39,339 bases of DNA from a virus. This document shows positions 10,310-28,575 of this stretch, piece after piece (within the stretch, counting starts at the first letter, position 1; each line of letters starts with the position of its first letter). The notes under the pieces were generated by a model. That model ran no database searches and had not been told where the DNA came from. It saw only the letters and a program-made list of their open reading frames with translations. The DNA lies in the IMG/VR virus record IMGVR_UViG_3300031673_016560, positions 1-39,339 of that record; one strand, 5' to 3'. The translations under genes were made by a program, and so were the position numbers.

Positions 10310-10310
10310 C

Positions 10311-13300
10311 TCAGTATTCACTTTGGTTTTTTACCAATTCAAAAATTCTTTCTACTTCCGCTGTATCTTTTACATACTTTCGAATGGCACTTTTGACTTC
10401 GCGTTCCTTGATTTTGTTCCCGCGCCAGCCATCCTTCTTAGTAGAAATAATCTCTGCATCTAAAGCAGTCGCTATAGCCTCGTTTTTATTCAGATTGTCA
10501 TACAACGCTCTTTTGGGACGGGAGTTCAAAGTTCTCGGATAGTCCGTTGAAATGTCAGGTCTTTTTATTTTATTAGTAAGCTCGACGATTTTCGCCAAAT
10601 ATTCCTCGTAGCTTCTGGCCTCTTGTTTGCGTTCCCTTATTAGCTGCTCCAATAGTTCCGACATCTTTTCATAATATTTTGGATTTGCTGGCTGTTCATC
10701 AATAATTACTTTACGCAAATTATTTTCGACAGTTTCAGCAACAGCTTTCTTATTTCTACTTATATTTGTTGGCAAATCGTTCAGTGCATCCGCTCCTCGT
10801 TTAACTATCAGGTCTATCAAAGTCATATCATCGAATGCGGATACTTTTTTGCTCTCTTCGGCGCTGATATAGGTATCTATTAAATGTCGCATAGCGGGCT
10901 CATACGCCTTCAAGTCAATATAATCTCCGCTTGCAAGTTTTATCTCTGCTCTGACGTTCTCAAAATATTTAACGTCGGCTTTTATCTGCTCGGTTTCTTT
11001 TAAAGCGTAGCCCGCCTCTACCATTTCATTGGCAAGGTTGGCATATGCTCTAACCAGGGCAGCCGTATGTTTATATAATGCGGCTCGCTTCTGTTCATGT
11101 TCGCTTAAATCGTCAGCGTCTTCTGTATTTCCGCAGAAATATCGAATATAGGCCAAAGTGTCCTTGGGATGTTCTACGGGTTCGCATAATGCTTTAATGA
11201 CTTCAAGGGCATCGTCCAATTGTTCCTTACTTTTTTGAAGCCTGTCATTTAGCAGGCCGGTTACATCTTCCTTTTCATATTCATCAAATGCTTCTGAAGT
11301 ATAATCCTTTATGGAATTTTCCAGACTCCTGAAAAGATCTTTGTAATCAATAATATAGCCATACCCTTTATCATCGCCGTCTAAGCGGTTTACACGGCAA
11401 ATGGCTTGAAACAGGCCGTGGTCACGCATGCTCTTGTCTATGTAAAGATATGTGGCTGGAGGAGCATCAAAGCCGGTAAGCAATTTATCAACCACAATAA
11501 GCAGCTTCATTTGTGCCGGTTCTTCAACAAATTTCTTTTTTACTTCTTCTTCAAATAATTCAACGTCCTTCCCGTTTAGCATTTTCTGATATATTTCGTA
11601 TTCCTTCAGTCTTTCCGTTGGAGCATCTTCGCCGGTGCTTTCACCCTTTATATCGCTGGTGCCCGGCACAAATGAAGTAACAACAGCGCACTTTGCCAAA
11701 CCTGCCTTTTGAAACAATTCATAATATTTACACGCCTGATAAATGCTGCCGGATATTAACATGGCGTTGCCTCTGCCGTTTTGTAAACGGTCTTTGGTTT
11801 CCATGTCGAGCATAATATCAGCAACTATTTTTTCCAATCTCGATTGCGAGCTAAGGACACGCTTCATAGTGCCCCATCTTTTTTTAAGCTCAGTTTTGGC
11901 GGTATCAGTCAATCCTTTTGTTTTTGCCTCAAACCACTGGTCTATTTTGTCCTGCGAAGTGATATTCTGGTCAACGCTTCTGGCTTCGTATTGCAAATCA
12001 AGCACGACTTCATCCGTAACTGCTTCATCGAATTTATAGGTATGAATATATGGGCCAAATACCTCAATACTTCTGAGCTTGTCTGTTTTAAGCAAAGGTG
12101 TGCCGGTAAACCCGATAAACAAGGCATTGGGCAAAATATCTTTCATTGCTTTGTGCAGTTCGCCTGACTGAGTGCGATGGCATTCATCAACGAATACGTA
12201 GAGGTCGCCTTTTGCCCTGAAGTCCCTTGGCAAACTGCGCCTTATGTCTTCAATATACCCATCATAATCCGCTTCTTCTCTGTTACCGAATTTATGGATA
12301 AGTGAACAGAGCAACCACGGTTTCGTAGAATGCAGCTTCTCTATTAAATCATTACAGCTTTTGGTGCGGTAAATATCTTCGCTTACACCTTTGAATATCT
12401 TTTCTATTTGCTTGTCCAGCTCATCACGGTCGGTAATGATAAGGACCCGTGCATCTGACATACTCTCACGAATCCATTTGGTGAGCCAAACCATAATCAG
12501 GCTCTTGCCGCTGCCCTGAGTATGCCAGATGATACCGCCTTCCCGCTTGCGAACTCGCTGCTGCGCAGCTTTTACGCCAAAATATTGATTATGTCGGCAT
12601 AGCTTTTTGATGCCACGGTCAAAAACGATAAAATCATGAATAAGCTCAATGAACCGTTCTTTGTCGCATAATTTGAGCAGGTGCTTATCCATCGGGCTTT
12701 CTACATCGGTATCTTCTTTCCAGGTGAGATAATACTTTTCAGGAGTTTCGATAGTGCCGTAACGCAAACCTTCGGTGTCATTACCGGCCATAACGAACTG
12801 GATGGTTGTAAAAAACTGTTTTATGAAAATCTCTTTCTGATTATCGAGGTTTTGACGTATGCCTTCTGAAACAGATATGGTGCTTCGTTTTAATTCCAGA
12901 ACCCCCAGCGCAATACCGTTTACATACAGGACTATATCAGGGCGTTTATCATGTTGACCTCTAACGGTGACCTCTTCGGCTATGGCGAAATCATTTTTTA
13001 GGGGCTCTTTCCAGTCGATTAGCCATACGGTTTGCTTGTTATCCCCAACATCTTCTTTGACTTGGACACCATAGCGCAACAAGCTATAGACTTCCTTATT
13101 GATGTCATATAAGCTTTTATTTTGGTCGCCTGCGGCTTTGTTTAACTCATACAGGGCTTTATTGATGAGCGTGTCACTATACCTTTGTTTGTCTTTAAGG
13201 AAACTGCGCAGGTATTCTTCTTCAATATTGCTGTTGTTTTCGCGGTCGTGCCAGTCGCCCAGATAGGCATATTTCAATTGGTCTTGGAATAGTTTGACCA

Positions 13301-13343
13301 CACGGTTTTGTGTTTCCTTTTCTCTTTGGCCTACCTTGTTCAT
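10311..13343 (-). CDS. hsdR: Type I restriction enzyme, R subunit
   Basis: HsdR is the motor and nuclease of the type I complex: it pulls DNA through and cuts when the target is unmodified. It is 1010 residues, full length. The N-terminal nuclease has Asp 136 and ELK (150-152). The helicase has Walker A GSGKS (277-281) and DECH (386-389), later GFTGTP and the second RecA domain with DKLLTGFDAP and QAICRVNR. The C-terminal part binds HsdM. It overlaps hsdS by 4 bases. All key residues are present, so restriction should be active. Confidence 0.97.
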   Translation of the reverse strand: MNKVGQREKETQNRVVKLFQDQLKYAYLGDWHDRENNSNIEEEYLRSFLKDKQRYSDTLINKALYELNKAAGDQNKSLYDINKEVYSLLRYGVQVKEDVGDNKQTVWLIDWKEPLKNDFAIAEEVTVRGQHDKRPDIVLYVNGIALGVLELKRSTISVSEGIRQNLDNQKEIFIKQFFTTIQFVMAGNDTEGLRYGTIETPEKYYLTWKEDTDVESPMDKHLLKLCDKERFIELIHDFIVFDRGIKKLCRHNQYFGVKAAQQRVRKREGGIIWHTQGSGKSLIMVWLTKWIRESMSDARVLIITDRDELDKQIEKIFKGVSEDIYRTKSCNDLIEKLHSTKPWLLCSLIHKFGNREEADYDGYIEDIRRSLPRDFRAKGDLYVFVDECHRTQSGELHKAMKDILPNALFIGFTGTPLLKTDKLRSIEVFGPYIHTYKFDEAVTDEVVLDLQYEARSVDQNITSQDKIDQWFEAKTKGLTDTAKTELKKRWGTMKRVLSSQSRLEKIVADIMLDMETKDRLQNGRGNAMLISGSIYQACKYYELFQKAGLAKCAVVTSFVPGTSDIKGESTGEDAPTERLKEYEIYQKMLNGKDVELFEEEVKKKFVEEPAQMKLLIVVDKLLTGFDAPPATYLYIDKSMRDHGLFQAICRVNRLDGDDKGYGYIIDYKDLFRSLENSIKDYTSEAFDEYEKEDVTGLLNDRLQKSKEQLDDALEVIKALCEPVEHPKDTLAYIRYFCGNTEDADDLSEHEQKRAALYKHTAALVRAYANLANEMVEAGYALKETEQIKADVKYFENVRAEIKLASGDYIDLKAYEPAMRHLIDTYISAEESKKVSAFDDMTLIDLIVKRGADALNDLPTNISRNKKAVAETVENNLRKVIIDEQPANPKYYEKMSELLEQLIRERKQEARSYEEYLAKIVELTNKIKRPDISTDYPRTLNSRPKRALYDNLNKNEAIATALDAEIISTKKDGWRGNKIKEREVKSAIRKYVKDTAEVERIFELVKNQSEY

Positions 13344-14593
13344 ATCAATCTCTTCTTACCTGTGAGTAATTCCTGCATCATACCTTCTTTTATCATTTTG
13401 TATTTTTCCAGTTTTGTCTCCAAGGCTGTTATTTCGGCGTCCATATCGCTGAGAACTTCTGCGATTGCAGTTTGTTCAGACTTGTCTTTCGGGATGTAAG
13501 CCTTATATTCTAAAATGTCGCCTTTGCCAATATTTCCCTGTGCCCCACCCTGAGCATTGACAATCATTTTATTTAAAAATTTCCTATCATTTAAAAGATA
13601 GAAAAAGAAGTCTATATCTATATCAATGGGAATCAATTTTCCTACTCGCTGATTGAGAAGTGTATTATTGGCATTCACTCTACATATTCTTCCAACATTA
13701 CCGGTCATTGAAATGAGCAGGTCACCATAGTAGAGAATTTGATGTGCCTGAATATCCTTTGGTAACTCTGAAATCCTACTACATTCTAAAATATCCATGC
13801 GACCATCTTGGACATTGGCTATTGTTATGATTAAATATTCTCCATTGTCATTGTAAGTGTTGCTTTTGAACGCGTAGCCATTCTCTAATTCACAAACCTC
13901 CCCCAACTTCTTCGCCTCCCACTTGCCGCTAAATCCCGGCAGGCGTTTTTTGCCGGTGAGAAACTGCTGCATTGCCCCTTGTTTGATATTTCGCTTTTTG
14001 GCAATGAGTTTTTCTAAAGCAGTAATCAATTCATCAGCATCGCTTAGAACTTGGGCAATGGCGGTTTGTTCGGCTTTGGTGGGCGGGAGGGCAAGGTGAA
14101 TTTTATGAACCGTTAGTAAACTCATCCCAGCCTTAGCCCCGGAGTCCGTTAAAGCGCGGAATAGCTTTTGCGGCTTTGCAGAAGCCAAAAAGTAACTGAC
14201 AAACTTTGAATCAGTATTTGATGAATCAAATCGCACTAATGCGATATGCTGGTTAATATAGGCTGGTTTCGGAACGTCCTCGGAAACGTAGCCTATGATG
14301 CCAATATCGGCCGTAATCGAAATTAAGACATCATTATCTTGAAGCTGCGTTCTAATACTCTCACTTGTATCCTGTGGAAGGTTCACCAATCGCAAATCTT
14401 CTAGGTCCAGGTAGATTGATTCTCTGGACAGATTAGTGATGCGGATGAACGGTGCACCTCGCTCTGAATAGTATGCAGCCCAACCACGAGACCCGCTGGT
14501 GACGAAAGGCTCGAAATCGCCAATTCGCTTCACCACCCAATCCTCCGGAATCACCCCTACCTCGGTCTGTTTATAGCCGGGTTTCACTTCCAT
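13340..14593 (-). CDS. hsdS: Type I restriction enzyme, S (specificity) subunit
   Basis: HsdS chooses the DNA target for both methylation and cutting. It is 417 residues with the usual two target-recognition domains. Each is followed by a conserved helical spacer (EQTAIAQVLSDADELITALEKLI and EQTAIAEVLSDMDAEITALETKL), and a repeated Q(Q/E)xLTGKKRL closes each half. The two spacers are near copies, which allows domain swapping. It overlaps hsdM by 10 bases and hsdR by 4. The target sequence cannot be read from the protein. Confidence 0.96.
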   Translation of the reverse strand: MEVKPGYKQTEVGVIPEDWVVKRIGDFEPFVTSGSRGWAAYYSERGAPFIRITNLSRESIYLDLEDLRLVNLPQDTSESIRTQLQDNDVLISITADIGIIGYVSEDVPKPAYINQHIALVRFDSSNTDSKFVSYFLASAKPQKLFRALTDSGAKAGMSLLTVHKIHLALPPTKAEQTAIAQVLSDADELITALEKLIAKKRNIKQGAMQQFLTGKKRLPGFSGKWEAKKLGEVCELENGYAFKSNTYNDNGEYLIITIANVQDGRMDILECSRISELPKDIQAHQILYYGDLLISMTGNVGRICRVNANNTLLNQRVGKLIPIDIDIDFFFYLLNDRKFLNKMIVNAQGGAQGNIGKGDILEYKAYIPKDKSEQTAIAEVLSDMDAEITALETKLEKYKMIKEGMMQELLTGKKRLI

Positions 14594-17025
14594 GAGAAAC
14601 CCATCCTTTCCAAGTGGCGGTTCACTTTCGCATCCAACTCGGCCGTGCGGCTGAGCATCCGGGGCAGCGGTGTTTCATATCGCTGGGCTAATTCTTTTAT
14701 TCGTTGTGTAAGGCGTTGGGAAATACGATTCATTTCAGTTTTGATATCCCGTTCAACAGCAGCCATCCATTTATCATCCACCACAAGTGTTTTTATCTCA
14801 TTTTCTGTAAGCACTTTGTATCTTGCTATAACCTTTTTCTCCAAGTCAGATTGTGCTTCTTTAATCTTCTTTTTGGCTTCTGCTTCCCGCTCTATCAGCT
14901 TCTGATAATCCTGTAACACCTTCAGTTCATCATCGTAAGCATTATCGGCTTTTATTTCTTTGATTCGTCTTTGCACTTCGCCTTTGGCAATCTTGCCTTT
15001 ATCATCTATGACCTCTGCAAGCAATCCTTCTTCGCCGCTGTGTTCTTCCACCATTTCTTCCTGTTGACGGACAATATCATCCCGCTGCGATTCGAGCTGC
15101 TCGATGCCTTTCCGTTCTGCGGCAAAGTAGCGATTTATGACAAGTTCAATAGGAATCAGCTTTCCTTCCAAACCCTCTAATCCCTCAATTTCCTTTTTCT
15201 TTTTGTCTTTGTATTCCCTTATTTTTCTTATGACAATATTCCCGGCCTTCCAGCCATCGACAGCCAATATATACATATCATCCTGCATTATCTCGTTCCA
15301 GTAAGTCATCAGATGTTGATACACATCGTATTTATCAATCAATTGTTCATCAGCGAAGCTTTTTAGTATGTCTTCGGAAATGGTTACAATAATTTGCTTG
15401 GGTTTAGCGCCCACGTGAACAGCTTTAAGCAATTTCGTGTTTTTCTTTTCCCATCCGGCAAAAACAGCATCCATTTTCTGAGAGAAGCTTACAAATTCGG
15501 GATGGGTAAAAATGGTTTGCTTAATTTCGTCCTGAGCTATCTTGAGCTTGCTGTAGCCCTTGCGTGAACCTGCAATAAACAGTTTACTCTTTAGTGATGG
15601 GTACACCTTCCAGTAATTCTCCAAGTTGTCAATGTCCCTATTGGGAATATCACCGAGCAAATGCGCCTCAATATCCTGAAGGTCTTCGGGTTCCTGGCTG
15701 TCAATATAACGTGGAATATTGAGGTTATATTCGTTTCGCTCAATTTCTTCCACTGGCACCATTCTTGAGTATTTTGGAATCTCAAGCTGCTTTGTAAATA
15801 CATCCACGATTTTGTGAATGTCCTGCTCGCGCAGGCGGTTTTTGTTGCCGTCCTTTACAAATCCTTTACTTGCATCTATCATAAAAATGCCTTTACGGCC
15901 TTCGGCATTTTCCTTATCAATTACAACGATGCAGGCGGGAATACCGGTGCCGTAAAAGAGGTTGGCAGGCAGACCGATGATGCCCTTTATATATCCTCTG
16001 CGGATAATGTTTTTGCGTATTTCGGCTTCGGCATTGCCCCTGAAAAGCACGCCGTGCGGCAGAATAATCGCGCCCTTGCCCTTGCTTTTGAGCGAACGAA
16101 CAAGATGGAGCAGGAAAGCATAATCACCGTTTTTTGCCGGTGGTATGCCATACCCTGTAAAACGTTCATAAACATCATTTGCAGGGTCAAAACCATTACG
16201 CCATGCCTTGTTGGAAAATGGAGGATTGGCTACGGCAAAATCAAAGGTTTTCAAGTGTCCGGTTCTTTCATCGGTAAACTGTGGAGAAGCCAATGTGTTA
16301 CCTTGCTTAATTACAGAGGTAGGATTATCGTGCAGCCACATATTCATTACGGCTAAGGCGCGTGTGGGATTGTCCATTTCCTGCCCATAGATAGAAATCT
16401 TAACAGACACTTCATCGGCGGTTTTCAGCAACAGCGAACCTGAACCACATGTCGGGTCGTAAACGGTGGTGTCGGCTCTTTGGACCTTAGCGGTCCCGAT
16501 TACTTTGGCCATGATGCGTGATACTTCAGCAGGAGTATAAAATTGCCCTTTGCTCTTGCCTGATTCGGTTGCAAAATGCCGCATAAGATATTCGTAGGCA
16601 TCGCCAAGAATATCATCACCTTCGGCCCTGTTTCCGCTGAAATTTAGGTTTTCGTCTTCAAATATGACTATCAGGTTGGAAAGCCTGTCCACCATTTCCT
16701 TGCCCTTGCCTAATTTGTCCGAGTCGTTGAAATCTGCCACATCAATAACTCCTTTTAGGTCATTGGCTTCGGCCAGCTTTCCGATGATTTTATTGATTCC
16801 CTCTCCTATGTCAGCTTTGCCTTTTAATGCGGACATATCCTTGAAACTGCCGCCATTTGGAACTTCGATCGGTGCATTTTTAATTGCGTAGTATTTATCC
16901 GACACATATTTCATGAACAGCAACACCAATACGTAATCTTTGTATTGGGAAGCATCCATTCCTCCCCTTAATTCATCACAGCTTGCCCATATGGAGCTGT
17001 AAAGTTCGCTTTTCTTAATTGCCAT
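14584..17025 (-). CDS. hsdM: Type I restriction enzyme, M (methylase) subunit
   Basis: HsdM methylates adenine N6 at the HsdS target. The SAM-binding motif DPTCGSGSLLL (190-200) and catalytic NPPF (267-270) are intact. At 813 residues it is much longer than classical HsdM (about 500-530): the extra C-terminal 300 residues are charged and coiled-coil-like (EGKLIPIELVINRYFAAERK, then EKKVIARYKVLTENEIKTLV), an extension also known in other long HsdM forms. AAAGG lies upstream of the ATG. It is the first intact gene of the M-S-R order. Confidence 0.97.
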   Translation of the reverse strand: MAIKKSELYSSIWASCDELRGGMDASQYKDYVLVLLFMKYVSDKYYAIKNAPIEVPNGGSFKDMSALKGKADIGEGINKIIGKLAEANDLKGVIDVADFNDSDKLGKGKEMVDRLSNLIVIFEDENLNFSGNRAEGDDILGDAYEYLMRHFATESGKSKGQFYTPAEVSRIMAKVIGTAKVQRADTTVYDPTCGSGSLLLKTADEVSVKISIYGQEMDNPTRALAVMNMWLHDNPTSVIKQGNTLASPQFTDERTGHLKTFDFAVANPPFSNKAWRNGFDPANDVYERFTGYGIPPAKNGDYAFLLHLVRSLKSKGKGAIILPHGVLFRGNAEAEIRKNIIRRGYIKGIIGLPANLFYGTGIPACIVVIDKENAEGRKGIFMIDASKGFVKDGNKNRLREQDIHKIVDVFTKQLEIPKYSRMVPVEEIERNEYNLNIPRYIDSQEPEDLQDIEAHLLGDIPNRDIDNLENYWKVYPSLKSKLFIAGSRKGYSKLKIAQDEIKQTIFTHPEFVSFSQKMDAVFAGWEKKNTKLLKAVHVGAKPKQIIVTISEDILKSFADEQLIDKYDVYQHLMTYWNEIMQDDMYILAVDGWKAGNIVIRKIREYKDKKKKEIEGLEGLEGKLIPIELVINRYFAAERKGIEQLESQRDDIVRQQEEMVEEHSGEEGLLAEVIDDKGKIAKGEVQRRIKEIKADNAYDDELKVLQDYQKLIEREAEAKKKIKEAQSDLEKKVIARYKVLTENEIKTLVVDDKWMAAVERDIKTEMNRISQRLTQRIKELAQRYETPLPRMLSRTAELDAKVNRHLERMGFSWK

Positions 17026-17590: not shown

Positions 17591-17917
17591 ATGAAAAGAC
17601 GCCCCCATTTAATTCCTGCTCTGATTGCAGCTCTCATGTTAGTTGGTGCTTTGGAACGCTGGCCTTACGGTTACTATCAACTGCTCAGATTGGTAGTGTG
17701 TGGCGTCGGCGTGTTTGTAGCCTACATGGCATACAACTGGAAGAAACTGTGGGTAACTTGGGTGTTTGGCTTTGTGGCTTTATTGTTCAATCCACTGGTT
17801 CCGATTCATCTTTCGCGTGAGATATGGCAGCCGATAGATTTAATCTGCGCCATATCGTTTACTGTTGTTGCATTCGTTTTGAAAGAGCCGATGAAAGAAA
17901 GAAAGGAAGGACAATAG
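17591..17917 (+). CDS. DUF6804-type small membrane protein
   Basis: This 108-residue protein has about four membrane-spanning helices (IPALIAALMLVGA; LLRLVVCGVGVFVAYMAY; WVTWVFGFVALLFNPLVP; LICAISFTVVAFVL). The pattern PYGYYQLLRLVVC and NPLVPIHLSREIWQPIDL fits the DUF6804 family of unknown function. AAGGAG precedes the ATG. It is the first gene of the rightward block and reads into the hxs genes. It may help anchor or export the modified peptide, but the family occurs in other settings too, so this is only context. Confidence 0.8.
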   Translation: MKRRPHLIPALIAALMLVGALERWPYGYYQLLRLVVCGVGVFVAYMAYNWKKLWVTWVFGFVALLFNPLVPIHLSREIWQPIDLICAISFTVVAFVLKEPMKERKEGQ

Positions 17918-17918
17918 C

Positions 17919-18056
17919 TTGCGCCAGCCACACTTAGGTCGATGGTTGCGTTGGCAATTCTCGCTACTTCTATGTGTCTTTGTGTGTGCGCCAGCCGTGT
18001 TGCCTCTGGTAGTGTTGGCTCCACATTTGAGCGAAAAAAGGCAAGGATTGAAGTAA
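17919..18056 (+). CDS. 45-residue hydrophobic peptide in the hxs operon
   Basis: This short frame starts at TTG two bases after the DUF6804 stop and ends in TAA, 30 bases before hxsD. It encodes a basic start (RQPHLGRWLRWQ), one membrane helix (FSLLLCVFVCAPAVLPLVVL) and a charged tail. AAGGAAGG lies about 10 bases upstream. The orderly positive-hydrophobic-charged layout and tight spacing suggest a real small membrane protein, but the start codon is weak. Confidence 0.45.
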   Translation: MRQPHLGRWLRWQFSLLLCVFVCAPAVLPLVVLAPHLSEKRQGLK

Positions 18057-18086
18057 ACAAGTGACCATATTTAAGGATGGCGGACA

Positions 18087-18422
18087 ATGAATCCTGGTAA
18101 TTTGGAACATATGCCTAACGGCAAGGTCAAGGTTAGCTTGGATGTTGGCCTTTACTCCCGTGATGCGATTCTCAGTACGGCGTACCGCTTCACACACAAG
18201 TGTTTTATCAACTTGCTGTCGTATGGAGTTGAAATAGCACACGTCGAATTCTCAAATAAGAATGACGACAAGTCCGACCTCACTGTTCTGGTTAACGAAT
18301 TTTTGAACGAACTTATAGACCAACAACTCAGATTTCGCATCAACAGTGAAACAAAAGACATCCAGCGTGCAATTGTGAAGGAGGCATTTGCTCCACTTGA
18401 GAATATCCCTGGGTCCGATTAA
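18087..18422 (+). CDS. hxsD: His-Xaa-Ser system protein HxsD
   Basis: This 111-residue protein sits where HxsD is expected, before the two radical SAM enzymes. Its sequence (VSLDVGLYSRDAILSTAYRFTHKC, then a C-terminal LVNEFLNELIDQQLRFRINSET) fits the small HxsD family known only from this system. Its biochemical role is not established; a scaffold or recognition partner is plausible. AAGGA precedes the start; an internal ATG at 18111 is an alternative. It lies 23 bases before hxsB. Confidence 0.8.
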   Translation: MNPGNLEHMPNGKVKVSLDVGLYSRDAILSTAYRFTHKCFINLLSYGVEIAHVEFSNKNDDKSDLTVLVNEFLNELIDQQLRFRINSETKDIQRAIVKEAFAPLENIPGSD

Positions 18423-18445
18423 TAACACGTTACGTTCAAAGCAGT

Positions 18446-19927
18446 ATGCCGAACCAAGAGAACTATAAACTGTTGCCCTTCAAGTTTCTCCGCCTCAAGA
18501 ATAAAACAATAGTTACGAACATGGGCGGAGATTTTCTGCTTCTTCCCGATGACGTTTTCAGACGATTCGTAAACTATGAAATACAACAGTCTGAACGTGT
18601 ATATTTAGACCTAAAAGCCAAACACTTTATCTACGACGAGTCTCCACATTTGCCCATCCAGTTGCTTGCCACGCAGTATCGCACGAAGAAGAGTTTCTTA
18701 CGGAACTTCACATCGTTGCACATGATAGTGGTAACTTTGCGGTGTAATCAGAAGTGCCGATATTGCCAAGTATCCAGCGAGCACGCAGATGCAGAGCAGT
18801 TTGACATGACAAGTCAGACAGCAAAGAAATGTGTTGACTTGATATTCAAAACTCCCTCCCCATACGTAAAGATTGAATTTCAGGGCGGGGAGCCTCTTTT
18901 GAATTTTGAGGTCATAAAGTATATCGTTGAATATGCTGAGAGTGTAAATCGCCAATACAATAAAGACTTGGAGTTTGTTATCTGTACGAATTTGGTTTTG
19001 ATTACAGACGACCAGTTAGTTTATTGCAAGGACCACGGAATTAACATTTCAACATCAATTGACGGTCCGCCCGATGTACACAACGGCAATCGACTCACCG
19101 AAGACGGCAGAGGTAGTTATGACAAGGTGCTAAAGGGCCTTGAAAAAGCTCGTAGAATACTGGACTTTAATAAAGTCGCTGCGCTTATGGCTACCACAAA
19201 AGCAAGCTTGGGTCGTTTCCCTGAGATTGTTGACCATTACATTCTCCTTGGTTTTCACCGTATATTCTTCAGGTCGCTTAATCCATATGGCAGGGCAAGA
19301 AAGCATCAGAAAATTCTTGGCTACAGCACGGACGATTTCTTGCAATCGTGCTGTGAAGGGTTGGAACACATAATCAAGCTCAACTTGGCAGGAACGCACT
19401 TTGTGGAAGAATACTCATGCTTACTATTAACACGGATGCTCACACCATTTACCACTGGCTATGTTGACCTGCAATCACCGACGGGGGCCGGTATCGGTGG
19501 CGTAATATATGATTATGATGGTCGAATTTATGTAGCCGATGAAGGTCGTATGTTAGCCAAGGAGGGTGATACGAAATTCTTGATGGGGCATGTTGACGGT
19601 CAGTTTGAGGCTATTTTTGGTGGTGCTACCGTACGAAGAACAATAGAGGTATCCTGCGTCGAGTGCTTGCCGCAGTGTATAGATTGCGCTTTCCAAATGT
19701 GGTGCGGAGCTGACCCGGTACGCAACTATGCCATTCAAGGTGACCTGGTTGGCCATCGACCGACTAACGAATTTTGTAGGAAAAACATGGGGATAGTAAA
19801 ATATTGGCTGGAGAAGCTTGACAATGCTGACGACGCCCTTTGGGACGTTATTTGGTCTTGGGTCACGGCCGTGCCTATCAGTACTATTTGCTCGTTTGGA
19901 ATGAAACATAGTATATGCGAAGCATAA
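18446..19927 (+). CDS. hxsB: Radical SAM maturase HxsB
   Basis: HxsB is one of two radical SAM enzymes of the His-Xaa-Ser system, presumed to modify the HxsA peptide. It is 493 residues. The iron-sulfur motif is CNQKCRYC (Cys 100, 104, 107), followed by QGGEPLL for SAM binding. A C-terminal cysteine-rich segment (SCVECLPQCIDCAFQMWCG, then a later EFC) fits a SPASM-type domain with extra clusters. No P-loop or signal peptide is present. The reaction is unproven. It overlaps hxsC by 13 bases, so both enzymes are probably made together. Confidence 0.92.
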   Translation: MPNQENYKLLPFKFLRLKNKTIVTNMGGDFLLLPDDVFRRFVNYEIQQSERVYLDLKAKHFIYDESPHLPIQLLATQYRTKKSFLRNFTSLHMIVVTLRCNQKCRYCQVSSEHADAEQFDMTSQTAKKCVDLIFKTPSPYVKIEFQGGEPLLNFEVIKYIVEYAESVNRQYNKDLEFVICTNLVLITDDQLVYCKDHGINISTSIDGPPDVHNGNRLTEDGRGSYDKVLKGLEKARRILDFNKVAALMATTKASLGRFPEIVDHYILLGFHRIFFRSLNPYGRARKHQKILGYSTDDFLQSCCEGLEHIIKLNLAGTHFVEEYSCLLLTRMLTPFTTGYVDLQSPTGAGIGGVIYDYDGRIYVADEGRMLAKEGDTKFLMGHVDGQFEAIFGGATVRRTIEVSCVECLPQCIDCAFQMWCGADPVRNYAIQGDLVGHRPTNEFCRKNMGIVKYWLEKLDNADDALWDVIWSWVTAVPISTICSFGMKHSICEA

Positions 19928-21090
19928 AATGCCATACCATACGGTTGCCAGGCTCTATACTGGCTAAAGCAACCCGCATTCCGCAGAAGAAAAGACTTCG
20001 TGCCGATTACATATTACTAACGGACACAGGGGCAATTAGAGATTACAAGGGATATGCAGCTATTGTTGTCGAGGATGCCAAGGTAGACATTTGCAAGAGC
20101 CAACTAAAGAACGTACCTTTGATTGTGGTGACCGATGGCCTGTCCGACGTACATGAAAATGATATAGCGCAGGTAGATTCGGAGGGCAAAGTCCTTTCTA
20201 TTCTATACGAAACTGAGTCGCCACACAATTCTTTGTTCTTAACAGAGCGCTGTAATTCCATGTGTATTATGTGTCCTCAGAGACCGAAGCCGGGCGCTAA
20301 GGATAGAATCGAGACCAACAGGCACTTAATTCGACTGATTGCCCAAAGCCCTGTCCAAGCCCCTGAGTACCTAACCCTAACGGGCGGCGAACCAACACTA
20401 TTGGGCGATAGATTGATTGACTTGATAAAAGAATGTCTCCAGAAGCTTCCGCAAACAAAGCTTGTGCTTCTTACAAATGGCCGCAGGTTTAAAGATATTA
20501 GTTATGTCGACAAATTAGCCATGGTTGCCCAGGGGCGCTTAAGGATAGACATTCCCCTATATTACGATGTGGATACAGAACACGACAGGACCATGGGAGT
20601 GAAGGGAGCTTTTGTTGAAACGATTCAAGGGCTGCATAATCTGGCCCTATACGAATTGCCAATTGGAATTAGAATTGTTATTTTAGCATCGAATTACACC
20701 AGACTTCCAGAAATTGCTGATTATATCTATCGTAACCTGACCTTTGTTTCCCACGTGGCACTGATGGGTTTAGAAGTGCGTGATTTGGCCGAAGACAATC
20801 TTGAGCGCGTATGGGTTGACCCATATGATTATCAGAGTCACCTTTTGAAGGCTTGTAAGTACCTGTTTCGGCGAGCCATACCGGTTTCAATTTACAATCA
20901 CCAATTGTGTGTTATCCCCAAAGACCTGTGGCCGCTTTCGAGAAAATCTATATCTGCTTGGAAAAATATCTATATCCCCATCTGTAAGGATTGCCAAGAA
21001 AGGCAAAGGTGCGGGGGGTTTTTTGCTTCGGCGACTCTAAACCACTCGGCGCATATATCTCCAATCAGTGTTTCACAGAACTTCGTCTGA
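19915..21090 (+). CDS. hxsC: Radical SAM maturase HxsC
   Basis: HxsC is the second radical SAM enzyme of the cassette, 391 residues. The cluster motif is CNSMCIMC (Cys 113, 117, 120), after an N-terminal domain of about 105 residues lacking cysteine motifs; TGGEPTLL follows. The tail has CKDCQERQRCGG, the three-cysteine signature typical of HxsC, then a short Ser/His-rich end. Its start lies inside the end of hxsB. It is expected to act on HxsA with HxsB and HxsD; the chemistry is unknown. Confidence 0.92.
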   Translation: MRSIKCHTIRLPGSILAKATRIPQKKRLRADYILLTDTGAIRDYKGYAAIVVEDAKVDICKSQLKNVPLIVVTDGLSDVHENDIAQVDSEGKVLSILYETESPHNSLFLTERCNSMCIMCPQRPKPGAKDRIETNRHLIRLIAQSPVQAPEYLTLTGGEPTLLGDRLIDLIKECLQKLPQTKLVLLTNGRRFKDISYVDKLAMVAQGRLRIDIPLYYDVDTEHDRTMGVKGAFVETIQGLHNLALYELPIGIRIVILASNYTRLPEIADYIYRNLTFVSHVALMGLEVRDLAEDNLERVWVDPYDYQSHLLKACKYLFRRAIPVSIYNHQLCVIPKDLWPLSRKSISAWKNIYIPICKDCQERQRCGGFFASATLNHSAHISPISVSQNFV

Positions 21091-21105
21091 AGAATAGCCT
21101 CAAAG

Positions 21106-21124
21106 CAGTAGAACTGTTTTTTTT
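21106..21124 (+). terminator. Weak terminator-like hairpin after hxsC
   Basis: CAGT-AGA-ACTG is followed directly by eight T. The stem is only 4 bp, so termination would be partial. It separates hxsC from hxsA, which has its own promoter. Confidence 0.35.
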
Positions 21125-21235
21125 GATTGAGAAAATATCGGCATAGTACAGTTTTTTTGCATCCCTAAGGCATTGTAAAAGCGTAGCTTAAGGTCTTGTG
21201 GCATCTCCCGACCAGAGAAATCCCGAAAAATTTGC

Positions 21236-21265
21236 TTGACAAAAAGGACCAAGAGCTGGTAAATT
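21236..21265 (+). promoter_or_regulatory. Putative promoter of hxsA
   Basis: A perfect TTGACA is followed after 18 bases by TAAATT, about 50 bases upstream of the hxsA start. A separate promoter for the precursor gene would allow it to be made in excess over the enzymes. Confidence 0.55.
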
Positions 21266-21313
21266 GCTAAAAAGTGGCTTGTTTGAACCGGCTTTCTGGT
21301 GAGAGGTCATATT

Positions 21314-21628
21314 ATGAGGAAGCTAAGGTTTTCGTTCAGCAAATTTTTGCGGAAGCTGTTCTTTCGTAAGTTGTTCTACCTGGTAAGCTCTGCGGTGGTG
21401 AGCTTAACATTGCTGGGCAGTTCGGTGAAAGCTGCACCGGGTGGTAGTGCAGGAAGTGCTCAGAGTGAGTTGAAGCGACCGTCAAAGCGGTTAATTCTTA
21501 AGCAAGCCGCATCTTATCTTGGCAATCAGGAACTGGACCATTGTTGGCATTCATCGCACGTATCCCATGCATCCCATGCGTCCCACGCGTCCCACGCGTC
21601 GCATGCGTCCCACGCGTCCGGATTCTAA
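21314..21628 (+). CDS. hxsA: His-Xaa-Ser repeat precursor peptide HxsA
   Basis: HxsA is the presumed substrate of the radical SAM enzymes. This one is 104 residues. A strongly basic start and one hydrophobic segment (LFYLVSSAVVSLTLLGSS, ending AAPGG) form a signal peptide or anchor. A middle region follows (SKRLILKQAASYLG). The C-terminus has eight H-x-S triads (HSS, HVS, then six HAS) ending GF, with one Cys just before. The protein is likely exported. AGAGGT precedes the ATG at 21314; an in-frame GTG 15 bases upstream is less likely. Confidence 0.9.
   Translation: MRKLRFSFSKFLRKLFFRKLFYLVSSAVVSLTLLGSSVKAAPGGSAGSAQSELKRPSKRLILKQAASYLGNQELDHCWHSSHVSHASHASHASHASHASHASGF
21548..21619 (+). repeat. 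9-bp tandem repeats encoding H-x-S triads
   Basis: Eight 9-base units of the form CAY GCG TCC lie in frame at the 3' end of hxsA. The last six encode HAS. Unit-number change by slippage would alter the number of triads without shifting the frame. Confidence 0.85.
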
Positions 21629-21798
21629 GATAAGTCCGGCTCCGAGGCTAAAGGGTCAGAACGGCTATCTGTTCACACGGTCTGGAAATCATCAGGAAGC
21701 TATATAAGGTGGTAGTACAATCGCTATTAAAGAAAGCGAGGTCGCTCCACGTGCTGTGGGTTTCCAATTCTAAGTAACGAAATAAAACAGAAGCCTTA

Positions 21799-21860
21799 GA
21801 GGGTACTCACCCTGTTCTCGTCGTAGAATTCTATTGATTTCCCCTATTGGTAGTACCCTC
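21799..21860. repeat. 9-bp inverted repeat downstream of hxsA
   Basis: GAGGGTACT (21799-21807) and AGTACCCTC (21852-21860) pair perfectly across 44 bases. Related GGTAGTAC and ACCACTACC stretches flank it, so a larger fold is possible. Confidence 0.4.
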
Positions 21861-22161
21861 AATTACCACTACCTGCTTCGAGTCAGTCCGGTCGATGGCA
21901 ACCATGACATAGTCTCGACACTCCCCGACTGCCAGTCAACTCCGCCTAAGGTCGTGCCCACCGGTTTTGCCTCGATTACTCCCGCTGCTTTGCGGTCTGT
22001 GGCTCTGGGCCTGTGGAGATTTTAGCCCCCCTGCCCCCTTATTGCGGGCTATGTGCTATCCTGACACCCCTAAAAAGGCTCAAATAGGTCACATGCGCCT
22101 ACCTCAGCCTGCAAAATCAGCGAATTTTGCGTGAGCGGATATATGGAACCATCGCAAGCCA

Positions 22162-22189
22162 CCCCCCCTGCTTCGGGAACGTGGGGGGG
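22162..22189. repeat. C7/G7 hairpin
   Basis: Seven C (22162-22168) face seven G (22183-22189) across a 14-base loop. Such a stem would be very stable; no T-run follows on either side at once. Confidence 0.4.
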
Positions 22190-22444
22190 CCTTGTCAAAA
22201 AAACCCTTGAAAAAAAAGACGCTGCTGGGCCTGCGGTACACGCTTGGCGCACCCCAGAGATTTAATAGGCCCCCCACCGTTTGCCCCAGCACGCCCAAAA
22301 ACGGCCAGCAAGGGGCGGTTTACGCAAAAAGTCCGCCCGGACCGTCTTGGACTACCCTTTTTTTTCAAAACCGGCCTCTAACAAGGGCTTTATTGCGGGC
22401 TGCGTGCATCGACAATCTCAAAATGGGGCCAGCTTGATATGTGG

Positions 22445-22476
22445 GGCCCCCTGTTTTTCCGAACTCAGGGGGGGCC
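22445..22476. repeat. GC-rich hairpin downstream of terS
   Basis: CCCCCTG (22447-22453) pairs with CAGGGGG (22466-22472) across 12 bases, and outer GG/CC can add pairs if two G bulge. On the minus strand it lies about 55 bases beyond the terS stop and may end or stabilise that transcript. Confidence 0.4.
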
Positions 22477-22531
22477 TTCCCCCCTCCCCCCCCGCCCTTA
22501 GCGGTTATTGTGAATACTATGGCAAAAGGCT

Positions 22532-22978
22532 TCACAATACTAAGCCATTGCCAGCGCTTTCGGCGCTCTCCAACAACGCCAACTGCCCTTGTAACCACTT
22601 TTTACGCTCCTCTGGCTCTTGAGGTGGCTCAAAAGGCCTGACAACGTGCTCCTTACGCTCGGTGAAGATGTTTTTGTATTTGCCGAGAAGCTCAAGCGCC
22701 CGCAGCCTGTCCGAATTGTTGACCCGTGCATCGTCAGAGGCAAAAGCAATAGCCTTGAGGCCAGAGATAATCTCTTTGACCTCTACCTTGTTCTCAACGG
22801 TAATATCGGCACTCAGTCTGTCAATTTCCGCCCGAACCTCAACATTTTTCAACAGTCTTTGCCCTTGCGAGTACGCAGTCTTCGGGCTGTAGCCTGTTCT
22901 CTTTGCTGCCTTTGTTGCGTTCCAGTCTTTGATGTACTCTCGGCAAAACGCTTTCTGTTTGTTGTTCAGTCTTGTCAT
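22532..22978 (-). CDS. terS: Small terminase subunit
   Basis: This 148-residue protein fits the Terminase_2-type small subunit, which recognises the DNA to be packaged and hands it to the large terminase. The N-terminal HTH region reads LNNKQKAFCREYIKDWNATKAAKRTGYSPKTAY, followed by an oligomerisation part (LLKNVEVRAEIDRL) and a C-terminal tail. AGGAG precedes the ATG. It is the last gene of a leftward operon inside the element and is not next to a large terminase, so it may redirect a helper phage's packaging, as terS does in PICI satellites. Confidence 0.85.
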   Translation of the reverse strand: MTRLNNKQKAFCREYIKDWNATKAAKRTGYSPKTAYSQGQRLLKNVEVRAEIDRLSADITVENKVEVKEIISGLKAIAFASDDARVNNSDRLRALELLGKYKNIFTERKEHVVRPFEPPQEPEERKKWLQGQLALLESAESAGNGLVL

Positions 22979-22986
22979 ACGTGCTC

Positions 22987-23097
22987 CTAATCTGCTGTTT
23001 TGTGTTGGTTCTGTTCTACCGTCGAAATGTGAGCCTGCACCAAGGTTCTAATTGCCGCTTTGATATGCTCCGTTAGCTCCGAGCAAGCCTCGGTCAT
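22987..23097 (-). CDS. 36-residue coupled peptide upstream of terS
   Basis: This short frame (MTEACSELTEHIKAAIRTLV and on) starts in the ATGA overlap with the stop of the HTH protein gene and stops within the ribosome site of terS. The predicted product is one amphipathic helix. The close packing on both sides suggests a real small gene of the packaging operon. Function is unknown. Confidence 0.55.
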   Translation of the reverse strand: MTEACSELTEHIKAAIRTLVQAHISTVEQNQHKTAD

Positions 23098-23498
23098 CGT
23101 TTCTGCCCTTCAAGCCTCTGTTCTATGGCCTCTATCCGTTCCAGTAATTCCCTGAGTTCTTTGTGCTTTAGAAAGTGCTCTATGATGTCTTTCGCCGTCA
23201 GCCGCTTCAGGCGGTCGTCTTTGTGGTCCAGCAACCCCACGAGTGTCTCAACTGCCTTCGTCAAACTCTGCGATAATACCCCGAAAGCCTCAGAGGTAAC
23301 CTCGTCCCGCTGCCGGTCAAGCTCAGCCTTAAACTCCGGCATTTTCAGCCACTCGTAAAGCGTTGTCCTGTTGAGGTCGGCTTTCTTGCAGGCTTCGGTA
23401 TACGTCGCGCTTGTAACTATCAGCGGAATAGCCTTAAGTTGCCTTTCGGTCAGTTTCTGTTCTTGGCCGTTTTGTTGTTTTTCGTTGGATTCTGTCAT
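23094..23498 (-). CDS. HTH/coiled-coil protein, terminase-small-like
   Basis: This 134-residue protein has an HTH of the type used by small terminase subunits (LTERQLKAIPLIVTSATYTEACKKADLNRTTLYEWL, given here as residues about 15-50), then a long helical region ending RELLERIEAIEQRLEG. I chose the ATG at 23498 because it overlaps the previous stop (ATGA). It may be a second DNA-recognition protein for packaging, or a transcription regulator of the operon. Two terminase-like HTH proteins in one operon is unusual. Confidence 0.65.
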   Translation of the reverse strand: MTESNEKQQNGQEQKLTERQLKAIPLIVTSATYTEACKKADLNRTTLYEWLKMPEFKAELDRQRDEVTSEAFGVLSQSLTKAVETLVGLLDHKDDRLKRLTAKDIIEHFLKHKELRELLERIEAIEQRLEGQKR

Positions 23499-23854
23499 TT
23501 TTTCTTTGCCTTCGCTTTGTTCTGTTCTACAAGCTTTTGGATGGATTCGGGAACTATCTGCTCGCACACGTAAAGTTCGTAGTCAAGCTTTTCGTAGAAC
23601 TCCTTTACCTCAGGGTCATTTCGGTCTTGCTTCAGTTGGGGGAGAAGGGCTTCTCCGTGCCTTATCTGGCGTTCCGTTGCTGCTATATCTTCCTCAGTAA
23701 AATCCTCAGGATGGGCCTTTTGGTAGTCCCACAATACGACATAGAAAGCGTAATTGCCTATTGGGTTCTTGTTCCAAAGAGTATGCTCTGCTACCGGAAG
23801 GACCTCAAAGACCTTCTTTTCGAGAGTATCCAGGCATCTCTTAATGCTGCTCAC
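23495..23854 (-). CDS. Unrecognised 119-residue protein of the terS operon
   Basis: No family was recognised. It begins with an amphipathic helix (SIKRCLDTLEKKV) like those of its two upstream neighbours, has a central aromatic stretch (NYAFYVVLWDYQK) and an acidic helical second half, and ends in a lysine-rich tail (KAKAKKK). It overlaps both neighbours by 4 bases. A structural or assembly-modifying role is possible, but unproven. Confidence 0.6.
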   Translation of the reverse strand: MSSIKRCLDTLEKKVFEVLPVAEHTLWNKNPIGNYAFYVVLWDYQKAHPEDFTEEDIAATERQIRHGEALLPQLKQDRNDPEVKEFYEKLDYELYVCEQIVPESIQKLVEQNKAKAKKK

Positions 23855-24308: not shown

Positions 24309-24529
24309 AACGTTTATCCTCCCTTCTGCGTTGCCTTGAACGCTTCTGCCAGTGCTTTTATTGACTGCCTGATAATGCTCTGGCAGCTCTCACGTCACTC
24401 TTACGTCATTCTTGCTTTGGTTTGGCCTATGTTGAGACTTTGTCACCAGTGTGTTGTCATTTTGTAACCCCTCTTTAAGCAAAAATAACGCGGGTAAGAA
24501 CCGTTCAGACAAACACTTATGACCGCTGC
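24309..24529. other. Gap between terS operon and right attachment site
   Basis: This stretch of about 220 bases holds the start region of the leftward operon and the right arm-type motif pair. No gene is seen. The putative arm sites at 24391-24408 lie where the operon promoter should be, so integrase or excisionase binding could affect operon expression. Confidence 0.5.
24391..24408 (+). promoter_or_regulatory. Putative right arm-type site pair
   Basis: CACGTCA (24391-24397) and TACGTCA (24402-24408) are 11 bp apart, the same spacing as TACGTCA twice at 503-520 near the left end. Both pairs have the same orientation on the plus strand. Confidence 0.55.
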
Positions 24530-25685
24530 GGCAGTGTTTGAGGCGAACGGCGCTATTGGATTCTTTCAGGATATGGCAGTGCTCGGAAGTGTTTACGGTT
24601 TTGTCGACTGTTTTGTCAGGCCTGGCAATGAGATCTTAGAACGATGCATTTCCTCTTCCTCCCAAAGTCTTTCACTTGAAGACGTGCTGCAATTGGCGCA
24701 GACGGTCGGCCTTGAACTGATTGAAGCACCGAGGGCACTGCCTGTTCTGGAGGAGGACGACTACAAGAAAATCAAGTACTACGTGCAGCACTTTTACCAG
24801 AAGAAGAATGAGCTGGGCAGGAAAAGCTCGTTCTTATCAAGACTACTGTCGGGGTTTTCCCAGAGCGGGAGCCCACAGAACAGACAAAACAGCGATAGTC
24901 GGCGGGTGGTTGCGGTGACGGAGATTACCTCGGAGAGGGCGTGGCAGAGGTATGAGAACAAGGAACTGGCGGCCGAAGGTGAGGCGGCGTGGGGGTTTTT
25001 GCCTGTGGTACACATACAGAACATTGCTCAGCCGTGTTACTACGAGGGGATGAGCGATGTCGAGCCGCTGATACCGCTGCAGGACGAGCTGAATACCCGG
25101 CTGAGTGACAGAGCCAACAGGATAACTTTTCAGTCGTTCAAGATGTATCTGGGCAAGGGGATAGAGGGCTTTGAGGACAGGCCGGTCTCGCCGGGCAGGA
25201 TGTGGTGCACGGACAATCCGGAGGCGACTATCGAGGAGTTTGGCGGGGATGCCGCGGTACCGAGCGAGGATATGCACATCGCGGAGATAAGAGAGGCGAT
25301 GGACAAGACAAGTGGAGTGACGCCGCTTGTGGCGGGGGTTTTGAAGAGCAAGCTCGGCAACCTGACAAGCGCGGTGGCGCTGAGACTGACGCTGATGGGG
25401 ATGCTGTCGAAGACGGAGCGCAAGAAGTTCACATACGGGGAAGGGCTGAAGAAAATCTGCGGGATGGTGCTGGATATTCTTGATAAGGCGAATATTTACA
25501 GAACGAGGGAGGCGGACCGTGAGGTGGATGTTATTTTCCCCAGTCCGCTGCCTGAGAACATGACGGAAAAGTTGAAAGAGGCTCAGATTAAGAAGGAGCT
25601 GGGCGTGTCAACTGAGCAAGTGCTCAGAGAATTGGGTTATGAGACCGCGGGAGACAGGTACGATTCCGGTCAGGAGGTTGTATGA
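24519..25685 (+). CDS. Phage portal protein, C-terminal part
   Basis: This is the larger part of the split portal gene, 388 residues. It continues from VFEANGAIGFFQDMAVLGSVYGF through the portal core (VVHIQNIAQPCYYEGMSDVE and PLIPLQDELNTRLSDRANRI) and the clip/crown region (ALRLTLMGMLSKTERKKF), as in SPP1 gp6-type portals. The first four residues MTAA come from the element. Without excision the first 145 residues are missing, so the product should not assemble. It overlaps the scaffold gene by 4 bases (ATGA). Upstream of position 1 one would expect the large terminase. Confidence 0.9.
   Translation: MTAAAVFEANGAIGFFQDMAVLGSVYGFVDCFVRPGNEILERCISSSSQSLSLEDVLQLAQTVGLELIEAPRALPVLEEDDYKKIKYYVQHFYQKKNELGRKSSFLSRLLSGFSQSGSPQNRQNSDSRRVVAVTEITSERAWQRYENKELAAEGEAAWGFLPVVHIQNIAQPCYYEGMSDVEPLIPLQDELNTRLSDRANRITFQSFKMYLGKGIEGFEDRPVSPGRMWCTDNPEATIEEFGGDAAVPSEDMHIAEIREAMDKTSGVTPLVAGVLKSKLGNLTSAVALRLTLMGMLSKTERKKFTYGEGLKKICGMVLDILDKANIYRTREADREVDVIFPSPLPENMTEKLKEAQIKKELGVSTEQVLRELGYETAGDRYDSGQEVV
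24530..24544 (+). repeat. Right attachment repeat (attR core)
   Basis: This is an exact copy of the 15 bases at 429-443, in the same portal reading frame. An ATG contributed by the element at 24519 stands in frame just in front, but no good ribosome site precedes it. Confidence 0.85.
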
Positions 25686-26209
25686 GTCCGATTGAGATGC
25701 AGGAAGATATTTTGTCAGAGACAGAAGCGGGACACAGTGACGGTGAAAATCTGAAGCTTGTTCCGGTTGCCGAATCAATCCGCTATCGAAAGCGGGCACA
25801 GAGCGCTGAGAAGAAAGCCGAGTCGCTGGCTGAGCAATTGGCTGAGGCGAAGGCGAAGGTTTCCGAGATGGCAGAGCAATTGAGCAGTGTAGAAGCGGAA
25901 CAGGAACTGACAAGGAAGCTGGCAGCGGCGGGGACTGTTGATGTGGAAGCGGCGGTCTTGATTGCGAAGGCCAGAATGAAAGGTCGGACGGAGGCGGATT
26001 TGGACGGCGTGATTGAGCAGTTGAGGAAAGAGAAGCAATATCTGTTCGCCAGTCAGCAAGCGGCCTCTAATGCGAAGAAGACTGCAGGTGTCAGGGACAG
26101 AATGCAAAACAGCCAGACAATCCTGGAGAGAGCGGCGAAGAAAGCGGCGATGACGGGCAGTCGAACAGATTTGCAGGAGTATCTTAAGCTGCGAAGAAAC
26201 TTTTTTTGA
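25682..26209 (+). CDS. Scaffold-like protein
   Basis: This 175-residue, highly charged protein is mostly coiled coil (repeated Ala/Glu/Lys heptads from about residue 30 to 140, such as AEKKAESLAEQLAEAKAKV). Its place between portal and capsid genes is the usual one for the scaffold that shapes the procapsid and is then lost. It overlaps the portal gene by 4 bases. There is no catalytic motif that would mark a protease. The assignment rests on composition and position. Confidence 0.75.
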   Translation: MSPIEMQEDILSETEAGHSDGENLKLVPVAESIRYRKRAQSAEKKAESLAEQLAEAKAKVSEMAEQLSSVEAEQELTRKLAAAGTVDVEAAVLIAKARMKGRTEADLDGVIEQLRKEKQYLFASQQAASNAKKTAGVRDRMQNSQTILERAAKKAAMTGSRTDLQEYLKLRRNFF

Positions 26210-26256
26210 TGGTGAAAAACTGAAAGAAATGGCGACTAAATAAAGGAGAGCAATAC

Positions 26257-27411: not shown

Positions 27412-27456
27412 GCAAGGGTAATGTTCAGGAAGCGAGATAATTCGTCGGTGCGGGGT

Positions 27457-27484
27457 TGCCCAAAGGGACGGCGCCCTTTGGGCA
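27457..27484. repeat. Perfect 11-bp hairpin after the capsid gene
   Basis: TGCCCAAAGGG (27457-27467) and CCCTTTGGGCA (27474-27484) enclose a 6-base loop. No T-run follows. It sits 45 bases after the capsid stop in a 112-base gap and may partly stop transcription or protect the capsid message. Confidence 0.6.
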
Positions 27485-27523
27485 CCCGAGCCCGCCGGTA
27501 AGGCGAGAAGGGGACGGAATAAA

Positions 27524-28180
27524 ATGGTTATGTTTTCAGGCGATGCGGACATTCTGAAATACGAGCCAGCACTGTTCGGAGAGTTGCACCTGGCAGCACA
27601 GGTATTGGCGGTCGGAAGCGGCGGGATACTCAGCGGGACGACATTTACTGCAAGCGGGGCGGATTTCGTGAGCTCGCAGGTTTCGGCCGGTGGAGTTGTA
27701 TATCTGCGGTCCGCGGATGGGGCGTTGGATGGCGCCTACGAAATAGTCTCGGTGGATTCTGCAACGGAGCTAACCGTTTCGGTAATCAGGTCGGACCCGG
27801 GTGATGAGGCGGTTCCGCCGCCTGCGGCGGAGGATATATCCTATCGGGTCAGCACGTTGGGGCCACAGGCGAGCGAAGTGGGTTTTCAGTTAACCGAGTA
27901 TTTCGGCATTGCTCCGGGCAATCCGGCAAGTGACATGGATGTGGAGGACGTTTTGGATACGGGGGTTTTGAGGAGGGCCTCGGTTTTTGCGGTGATTTCG
28001 AGTGCTTACGCGACATTGGCGAGCAAGGCCGAGGACGAGAATTTCTGGAAGAAGAGCCTGCATTATCAGAGGCTTTTCGAAAAGGCGAGGGAGCGTTGTC
28101 GGCTCAGTATCGACCTGGGCAGCGATGGTGTAGCTGATGTCACCAAATCCGGCGCTTGCGCGAGGTTGGTGAGAGATTAG
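27524..28180 (+). CDS. Putative head-completion/connector protein
   Basis: This 218-residue protein was not firmly recognised. Its N-terminal half is beta-rich with a small barrel-like module (DGAYEIVSVDSATELTVSVI); the C-terminal half is helical (VISSAYATLASKAEDENFW, SLHYQRLFEKAREROCR-like stretch), as in head-tail adaptor proteins that follow DUF5309 capsids. GGGGA precedes the ATG. A role joining head and tail is inferred from position. Confidence 0.55.
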   Translation: MVMFSGDADILKYEPALFGELHLAAQVLAVGSGGILSGTTFTASGADFVSSQVSAGGVVYLRSADGALDGAYEIVSVDSATELTVSVIRSDPGDEAVPPPAAEDISYRVSTLGPQASEVGFQLTEYFGIAPGNPASDMDVEDVLDTGVLRRASVFAVISSAYATLASKAEDENFWKKSLHYQRLFEKARERCRLSIDLGSDGVADVTKSGACARLVRD

Positions 28181-28199
28181 TTCGCGAAGGGAAAGAGGG

Positions 28200-28571: not shown

Positions 28572-28575
28572 CGAC

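Follow-up and report, generated by a model that had tools for sequence, protein, structure and literature searches.

The His-Xaa-Ser (hxs) system, represented by the NCBIfam families TIGR03976, TIGR03977, TIGR03978, and TIGR03979 (Haft and Basu, as cited in PMC9062424), occurs in hundreds of genomes, and the papers searched that name it report, in the portions available, neither a product nor a role. Earlier papers (PMC8446631 and PMC6537148) list hxs genes alongside genes of mobile elements for Pseudomonas aeruginosa and place them at a variable region in Vibrio parahaemolyticus. Here we describe an hxs cassette in a stretch of DNA of 39,339 bp, the complete IMG/VR virus record IMGVR_UViG_3300031673_016560 (the window). 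Our combined results suggest, with a probability of about 0.72, that the window is a piece of planctomycete-like chromosome whose portal protein gene has been entered, through site-specific integration, by a phage-derived element of 24.1 kb with the hxs genes as cargo, and that the hxs proteins would work in the manner proposed below.

The ends of the element were located through the interrupted portal gene. The window opens with a 5' portal fragment (positions 1 to 450, plus strand; 149 amino acids, ending ...AVFEAN) that is 74 to 75% identical to residues 1 to 149 of the intact 527-residue portal of G001, a planctomycete genome in which the closest of the listed HxsB matches is likewise found. 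The 3' fragment lies in a 388-amino-acid open reading frame (ORF) on the same strand (24519 to 25685; PF05133 and phrog_64), with portal homology from 24546 and 80 to 83% identity to G001. The longest word common to both fragments, GGCAGTGTTTGAGGC, lies within the portal gene at 429 to 443 (attL-like) and is paired with a second copy at 24530 to 24544 (attR-like), giving a 15-bp direct repeat at each end of a core-to-core span of 24.1 kb. When the portal flanks were joined and searched against 294 planctomycete genomes, matches were seen in 21, and 17 planctomycete homologues read uninterrupted across the junction; the G001 portal is unbroken over residues 1 to 526 at 81% identity. At the nucleotide level, the intact homologue in G001 (L110) matches the left flank as far as the core and the right flank beyond it. 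The split portal, the 15-bp repeats, and the intact homologues together indicate that the 24.1 kb was inserted into an intact portal gene. In-frame stops in the portals of some relatives were considered as additional breaks and rejected, since they fall at the end of the conserved C terminus or past it rather than within the gene. Two other genomes do have this portal gene in broken form: its pieces are 67 kb apart in one (G163:C1, 3226100 to 3294595), and a portal-scaffold-capsid segment is inverted in the other (G288:C41, 58179 to 73078); the gene has thus been hit repeatedly.

Beyond the right end, the interrupted gene continues into a capsid cluster with chromosomal relatives. The major capsid protein (26257 to 27411, plus strand, outside the element; phrog_1328, E = 2e-82) is 86% identical to that of G001, and the genes for portal, scaffold, and capsid, together with most of those farther downstream, have G001 matches in identical order. 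Against G001, the ratio of nonsynonymous to synonymous differences (pN/pS) for the genes of this cluster is 0.10 to 0.22, indicating purifying selection, and the G001 cluster is flanked by ordinary-looking chromosomal genes. No match to the large-terminase families PF03237 and PF04466 was found anywhere in 13 of the 17 genomes with an unbroken portal, and in the other 4 the matches lie on contigs separate from the portal. Because the cluster is chromosomal and terminase free in relatives, the capsid genes are not the element's own; the phage-associated location claimed in the original prediction, which had been made from the window's letters, was therefore loosely put, the element having broken into a cluster of chromosomal genes. 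On these comparisons the cluster is most likely a retained, domesticated-looking chromosomal unit of viral derivation, the host is probably a planctomycete, and the virus label of the IMG/VR record is doubtful. We found no paper on a domesticated planctomycete capsid cluster. Portal-scaffold-capsid clusters followed by a protein of about 220 amino acids and a lipoprotein recur in planctomycetes (24546 to 37734 of the window; also L130, 6364 to 19855, and L132 to L145). By eye, a SplB-like radical SAM gene was noted within the cluster of the window (35922 to 37118); the G001 copy is 68% identical, and none was found in the other capsid clusters compared.

Just inside the left end lies a tyrosine integrase gene (481 to 1710; PF00589, E = 2e-20), followed, likewise on the minus strand, by genes for a DnaB-like replicative helicase (2367 to 3701; PF03796, E = 1e-77), a DnaD-like helicase loader or replication initiator (3670 to 4479; phrog_2514, E = 2e-29), an excisionase/AlpA-like DNA-binding protein (4634 to 4870; phrog_66, E = 4e-5, and phrog_2790, E = 8e-5), and a sigma-70 region 4-like regulator (5058 to 5666; PF08281, E = 3e-6, and phrog_1190). 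The restriction genes announced in the original prediction were confirmed by family models on the same strand: an Mrr-type nuclease (7818 to 8864; PADLOC PDC-S02, PF04471, and PDLC04815 at E = 3e-143) and the type I restriction subunits HsdR (10311 to 13343; PDLC03044, 1,491 bits), HsdS for specificity (13340 to 14593; PF01420 and PDLC03098), and the methylase HsdM (14584 to 17025; TIGR00497 over its cut-off and PF02384). Near the right end are the minus-strand genes for terminase small subunit 1 (22532 to 22978; PF03592, E = 1e-26, and phrog_51) and a second small subunit-like protein (23094 to 23567; phrog_2538, E = 2e-15). Among the element ORFs scanned there was no capsid or large-terminase match, and by its content the element looks like a phage satellite or else a stripped-down prophage. 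In the window as a whole, no large terminase or tail gene was recognized among the ORFs scanned, in a record that opens at the portal ATG and with some small ORFs outside the scan. Its integrase gene and precise ends bear out the view of the hxs cassette as mobile cargo. Two side observations concern the element: two differing small-terminase genes adjoin one another (22532 to 23567) where no large terminase was recognized, and two small metalloprotease-like ORFs lie between HsdR and the Mrr nuclease (8951 to 10321; one matches M12 weakly, and the other shows an HEMLH motif by eye).

The cassette itself is complete, as had been predicted. Scored against the curated NCBIfam cut-offs, hxsD (18087 to 18422; TIGR03976, 73.6 bits, cut-off 50), the radical SAM maturase gene hxsB (18446 to 19927; TIGR03978, 577.9 bits, cut-off 370), and hxsC, encoding a second radical SAM maturase (19915 to 21090; TIGR03977, 333.6 bits, cut-off 267.9), are adjacent on the plus strand and all above threshold. 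They are followed on that strand by an hxsA-like precursor gene (21314 to 21628; 104 amino acids, with an alternative GTG start upstream at 21299), giving the order D-B-C-A with all four genes complete and their frames open. The radical SAM cysteines are intact in HxsB (CNQKCRYC) and HxsC (CNSMCIMC). The HxsA-like protein has a signal-peptide-like N terminus and, by direct reading, exactly eight consecutive H-x-S triads (HSS, HVS, and six HAS; 21548 to 21619, plus strand), encoded by mixed codons (CAT/CAC and TCC/TCG) in a tandem repeat with a 9-bp unit. The stretch of about 900 bp that separates hxsA from the small-terminase genes (21629 to 22531) has a higher G+C content (53.6%) and no credible gene.

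Several points weigh against the reading set out at the start. The first letters of the record are the portal ATG, which leaves the leftward DNA unseen, and the host phylum rests on related proteins. In the 294 planctomycete genomes, the integrase search returned distant pieces only, the best at 37%, as did searches with the DnaD-like and small-terminase proteins, which revealed no common element; a similar integrase, DnaB, and DnaD-like module is present in G190 (L177). Single-protein scans of IMG/VR viral contigs gave no relatives of the window HxsB or portal and one weak 25% match to the integrase. Since no relatives of the element with the same integrase were found, mobility rests on a single copy, and the element could be a decayed prophage, given its small-terminase genes and phage-type replication module. 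HxsA reaches 20 bits against TIGR03979, below the cut-off of 121.65, and also falls under the HxsA2, HxsA3, and HxsA4 cut-offs. The pN/pS values of HxsB, HxsC, and HxsD against L010, the hxs locus of the closest HxsB, are 0.27 to 0.30, rough figures at saturated synonymous sites. Finally, the 223-bp gap between hxsC and hxsA holds a promoter-like TTGACA-N18-TAAATT site (21236 to 21265, plus strand; 10 of 12 consensus positions), so that a single transcript for the cassette is not established and hxsA may have its own promoter; promoter and terminator scans of the hxs region gave a number of sites not above chance.

Comparison with other loci helps in reading the precursor. An HxsA-type ORF was found at 95 of 107 other hxsB loci and all four parts at 85; the loci without HxsA are mostly short stretches or end near the operon. 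The HxsA N terminus is hydrophobic at 82 of 96 loci, whereas the figure for control ORFs is 22.5%. In most HxsA proteins a short motif (for example, LVLKHA or FVLKR) lies about 10 to 20 residues N-terminal to the repeats; in the window it is RLILKQA. HxsA thus typically appears, from these 107 loci, to be an exported peptide with a hydrophobic motif preceding the repeats. Several long HxsA proteins end in peptidoglycan-binding or immunoglobulin-like (Ig-like) domains, which points to the envelope as the site of action. In two divergent loci (L009 and L097), HxsA has an internal hydrophobic segment immediately before the repeats, and L009 also has, by eye, what may be a prepilin-peptidase-like gene, as well as an additional ORF between hxsD and hxsC.

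Structure prediction suggests how the maturases may be arranged. The nearest solved relatives of HxsB by sequence are CteB and anSMEcpe. The HxsB model (mean predicted local distance difference test [pLDDT] score of 93) has strands at residues 13 to 17, 20 to 24, and 30 to 34 and helices at 35 to 42, 51 to 58, and 68 to 81; in this model of the whole protein, residues 13 to 81 thus follow the three-strand, three-helix topology of a PqqD-like recognition element (RRE). It aligns with CteB (5wgg) over 403 residues spanning 11 to 462 (Z score of 36.2, root mean square deviation of 3.5), the N-terminal domain included, and with TigE (8vpo) from residue 3. The first part of CteB is an RRE. HxsB is accordingly best modeled as a CteB-like maturase with an N-terminal domain of predicted RRE topology. 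HxsD was also considered as the recognition element and seems unlikely in that role: its AlphaFold2 model (pLDDT of 91) runs strand-helix-strand-strand-long helix, a different order of elements, and had no Foldseek match at E of ≤0.001, and the modeled protein does not look like an RRE. With an RRE-like N terminus on HxsB and a differing fold in HxsD, we propose HxsB as the docking partner of HxsA. HxsA would be synthesized as a short precursor bearing an N-terminal export signal, the hydrophobic RLILKQA motif, and eight His-Xaa-Ser triads; the RRE-like domain of HxsB would dock the segment preceding the repeats; HxsB, together with HxsC and with HxsD as an accessory protein, would then modify or cross-link the triads by radical chemistry in the cytoplasm; and modified HxsA would be exported to act in or at the cell envelope, and might benefit the element.

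An alignment search with HxsB identified no fewer than 547 relatives in the collection of genomes, many of them chromosomal, and 19 records in IMG/VR; by tblastn, hxs genes were found on 346 plasmid records (316 from Klebsiella; 275 typed as conjugative) and in Leptospira phage LE1. The restriction to fixed chromosomal genes that would have spoken against mobile cargo was thus not observed, and hxs genes are already known from plasmids, from a phage of Leptospira, and from islands. Among the matches listed, the closest HxsB is chromosomal, that of L010 in the Planctomycetota metagenome-assembled genome MohnsGC08_bin191 (67% identity), and no integrase or restriction gene was recognized in the flanks read. 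The window HxsB is sister to this copy with a support of 100, and planctomycete copies fall in three places of the tree, a pattern that fits transfer without proving it. The distribution of hxs is patchy over many phyla, with mixed branching. Staphylococcal-nuclease-like genes (thermonuclease family) recur beside hxsC (L006, 8591 to 9307; L189, 8982 to 9518; and three members of flank set A3), and SNase ranked first by frequency among the Pfam families of the flanks.

The chromosomal setting of many genome-contig matches would suit a housekeeping or stress system of the envelope, in which a His-rich exported peptide serves in metal binding or cell-wall attachment and hitchhikes on mobile DNA. 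We regard this as a serious though tentative alternative, at somewhat less than even odds: the exported His-rich architecture, the peptidoglycan-binding tails of some HxsA proteins, and the sequence constraint seen in pN/pS agree with it, whereas the patchy spread across phyla and the mixed branching do not, and plain metal binding should need neither strict H-x-S spacing nor two radical SAM enzymes.

A role in competition or defense, at which the original prediction hinted, has the association on its side. We compared 130 proteins around 34 hxs loci with 108 control proteins by using PADLOC (E of ≤1e-20) and obtained matches to 59 families in the flanks versus 7 in the controls. Models were counted here, so that one protein can contribute several; the controls come without position matching, and ORFs were called mechanically. 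Names found in the flanks include DpdF, GajB, AbiU, ThsB, AbiEi, and DUF3644, among others, and annotated plasmid loci adjoin AbiEi/AbiEii and also a helicase, an AAA ATPase, and DUF3644. These data support the residence of hxs loci in defense-rich variable regions; a defense function goes beyond what they carry. That hxs is an antiphage or anticompetitor system, in which modified HxsA serves as a surface shield, a bacteriocin, or an abortive effector and which adjoins restriction genes for that reason, seems unlikely to us: variable regions gather defense genes whatever the cargo, L010 as the closest relative is a counterexample with flanks of a housekeeping-like kind, and in PADLOC HxsB matches only viperin models, and those weakly, as many radical SAM proteins would.

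The label of the record, and the presence together of portal, scaffold, capsid, integrase, replication, and small-terminase genes, could be read as the whole window being one prophage, or a satellite equipped with capsid genes of its own, with hxs as cargo and a portal split by decay. This is improbable; related chromosomes have the capsid cluster without integrase, replication genes, or terminase, and what splits the portal is an exact insertion, marked by a 15-bp repeat beside an integrase. An elaboration of the integrated-element reading, to which we give little credence, is that a satellite-like element targets the virus-derived, terminase-less capsid cluster kept by planctomycetes, switching it off by splitting the portal gene, that precise excision could turn it on, and that the element repays the host through hxs and restriction as envelope and intracellular defense. 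A nonfunctional remnant, for which one might cite HxsA under the family cut-offs and the single copy seen, is scarcely credible given open frames, intact radical SAM cysteines, and pN/pS values near 0.3 for HxsB, HxsC, and HxsD against L010.

Upstream of hxsD on the plus strand lie a gene for a DUF6804 membrane protein (17591 to 17917; PF20619, 96.7 bits, cut-off 27) and a TTG-initiated ORF of 45 amino acids (17919 to 18056), a doubtful gene with no family match. Both had been proposed as cassette genes on the same transcript. A search for DUF6804 in 50 other genomes or records with hxs, with the window as a working positive control, found it in none, and it was rejected as a conserved hxs partner; L010 has a different membrane protein, of 177 amino acids, at this position, and the 45-mer has no independent support. 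The two are best seen as local passengers.

These findings offer a bounded mobile unit with hxs cargo and a defined eight-triad precursor suited to mass spectrometry, as well as a testable order of events in which the N-terminal domain of HxsB docks HxsA and HxsD is unlike a docking domain. The landing site, in turn, exposes a conserved terminase-less chromosomal capsid cluster that is worth study by itself.

Set against the systems described so far, the cassette agrees with the NCBIfam definition of hxs in its adjacent HxsD, HxsB, and HxsC above the cut-offs and its His-Xaa-Ser repeat precursor; it differs in the short HxsA below TIGR03979, the order D-B-C-A, and its position inside an integrative element. 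The locus shares its mobile setting with Leptospira phage vB_LnoZ_CZ214-LE1 (KF114877) and with Klebsiella/Enterobacter, Aeromonas, and rhizobial plasmids, but those loci have HxsB identities to the window of 46% or lower and lie outside any portal gene, and the order in Leptospira and Paraburkholderia is A-D-B-C. L010 is alike in order, in HxsB (67%), and in a similar HxsA of 103 amino acids, but it lacks DUF6804, and the flanks read contain no recognized restriction genes or integrase. HxsB resembles CteB (5WGG), a radical SAM/SPASM thioether-forming peptide maturase, over 403 residues, but at 20% identity and with H-x-S repeats rather than a Cys-rich peptide as the substrate. The element shares with phage-inducible chromosomal islands (PICIs) and other phage satellites an integrase, an excisionase-like gene, a replication module, a small terminase, and the lack of a recognized capsid or large-terminase gene among the ORFs scanned. 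PICIs are characteristically about 10 to 20 kb in size. The element is 24.1 kb long, encodes DnaB and type I restriction, and has no known helper phage and no recognized capsid-remodeling gene; because of its 24-kb length and the lack of a known helper, we do not file it as a PICI. The cassette is a further hxs system of the established type, and what is unusual about it is its carrier and its landing site.

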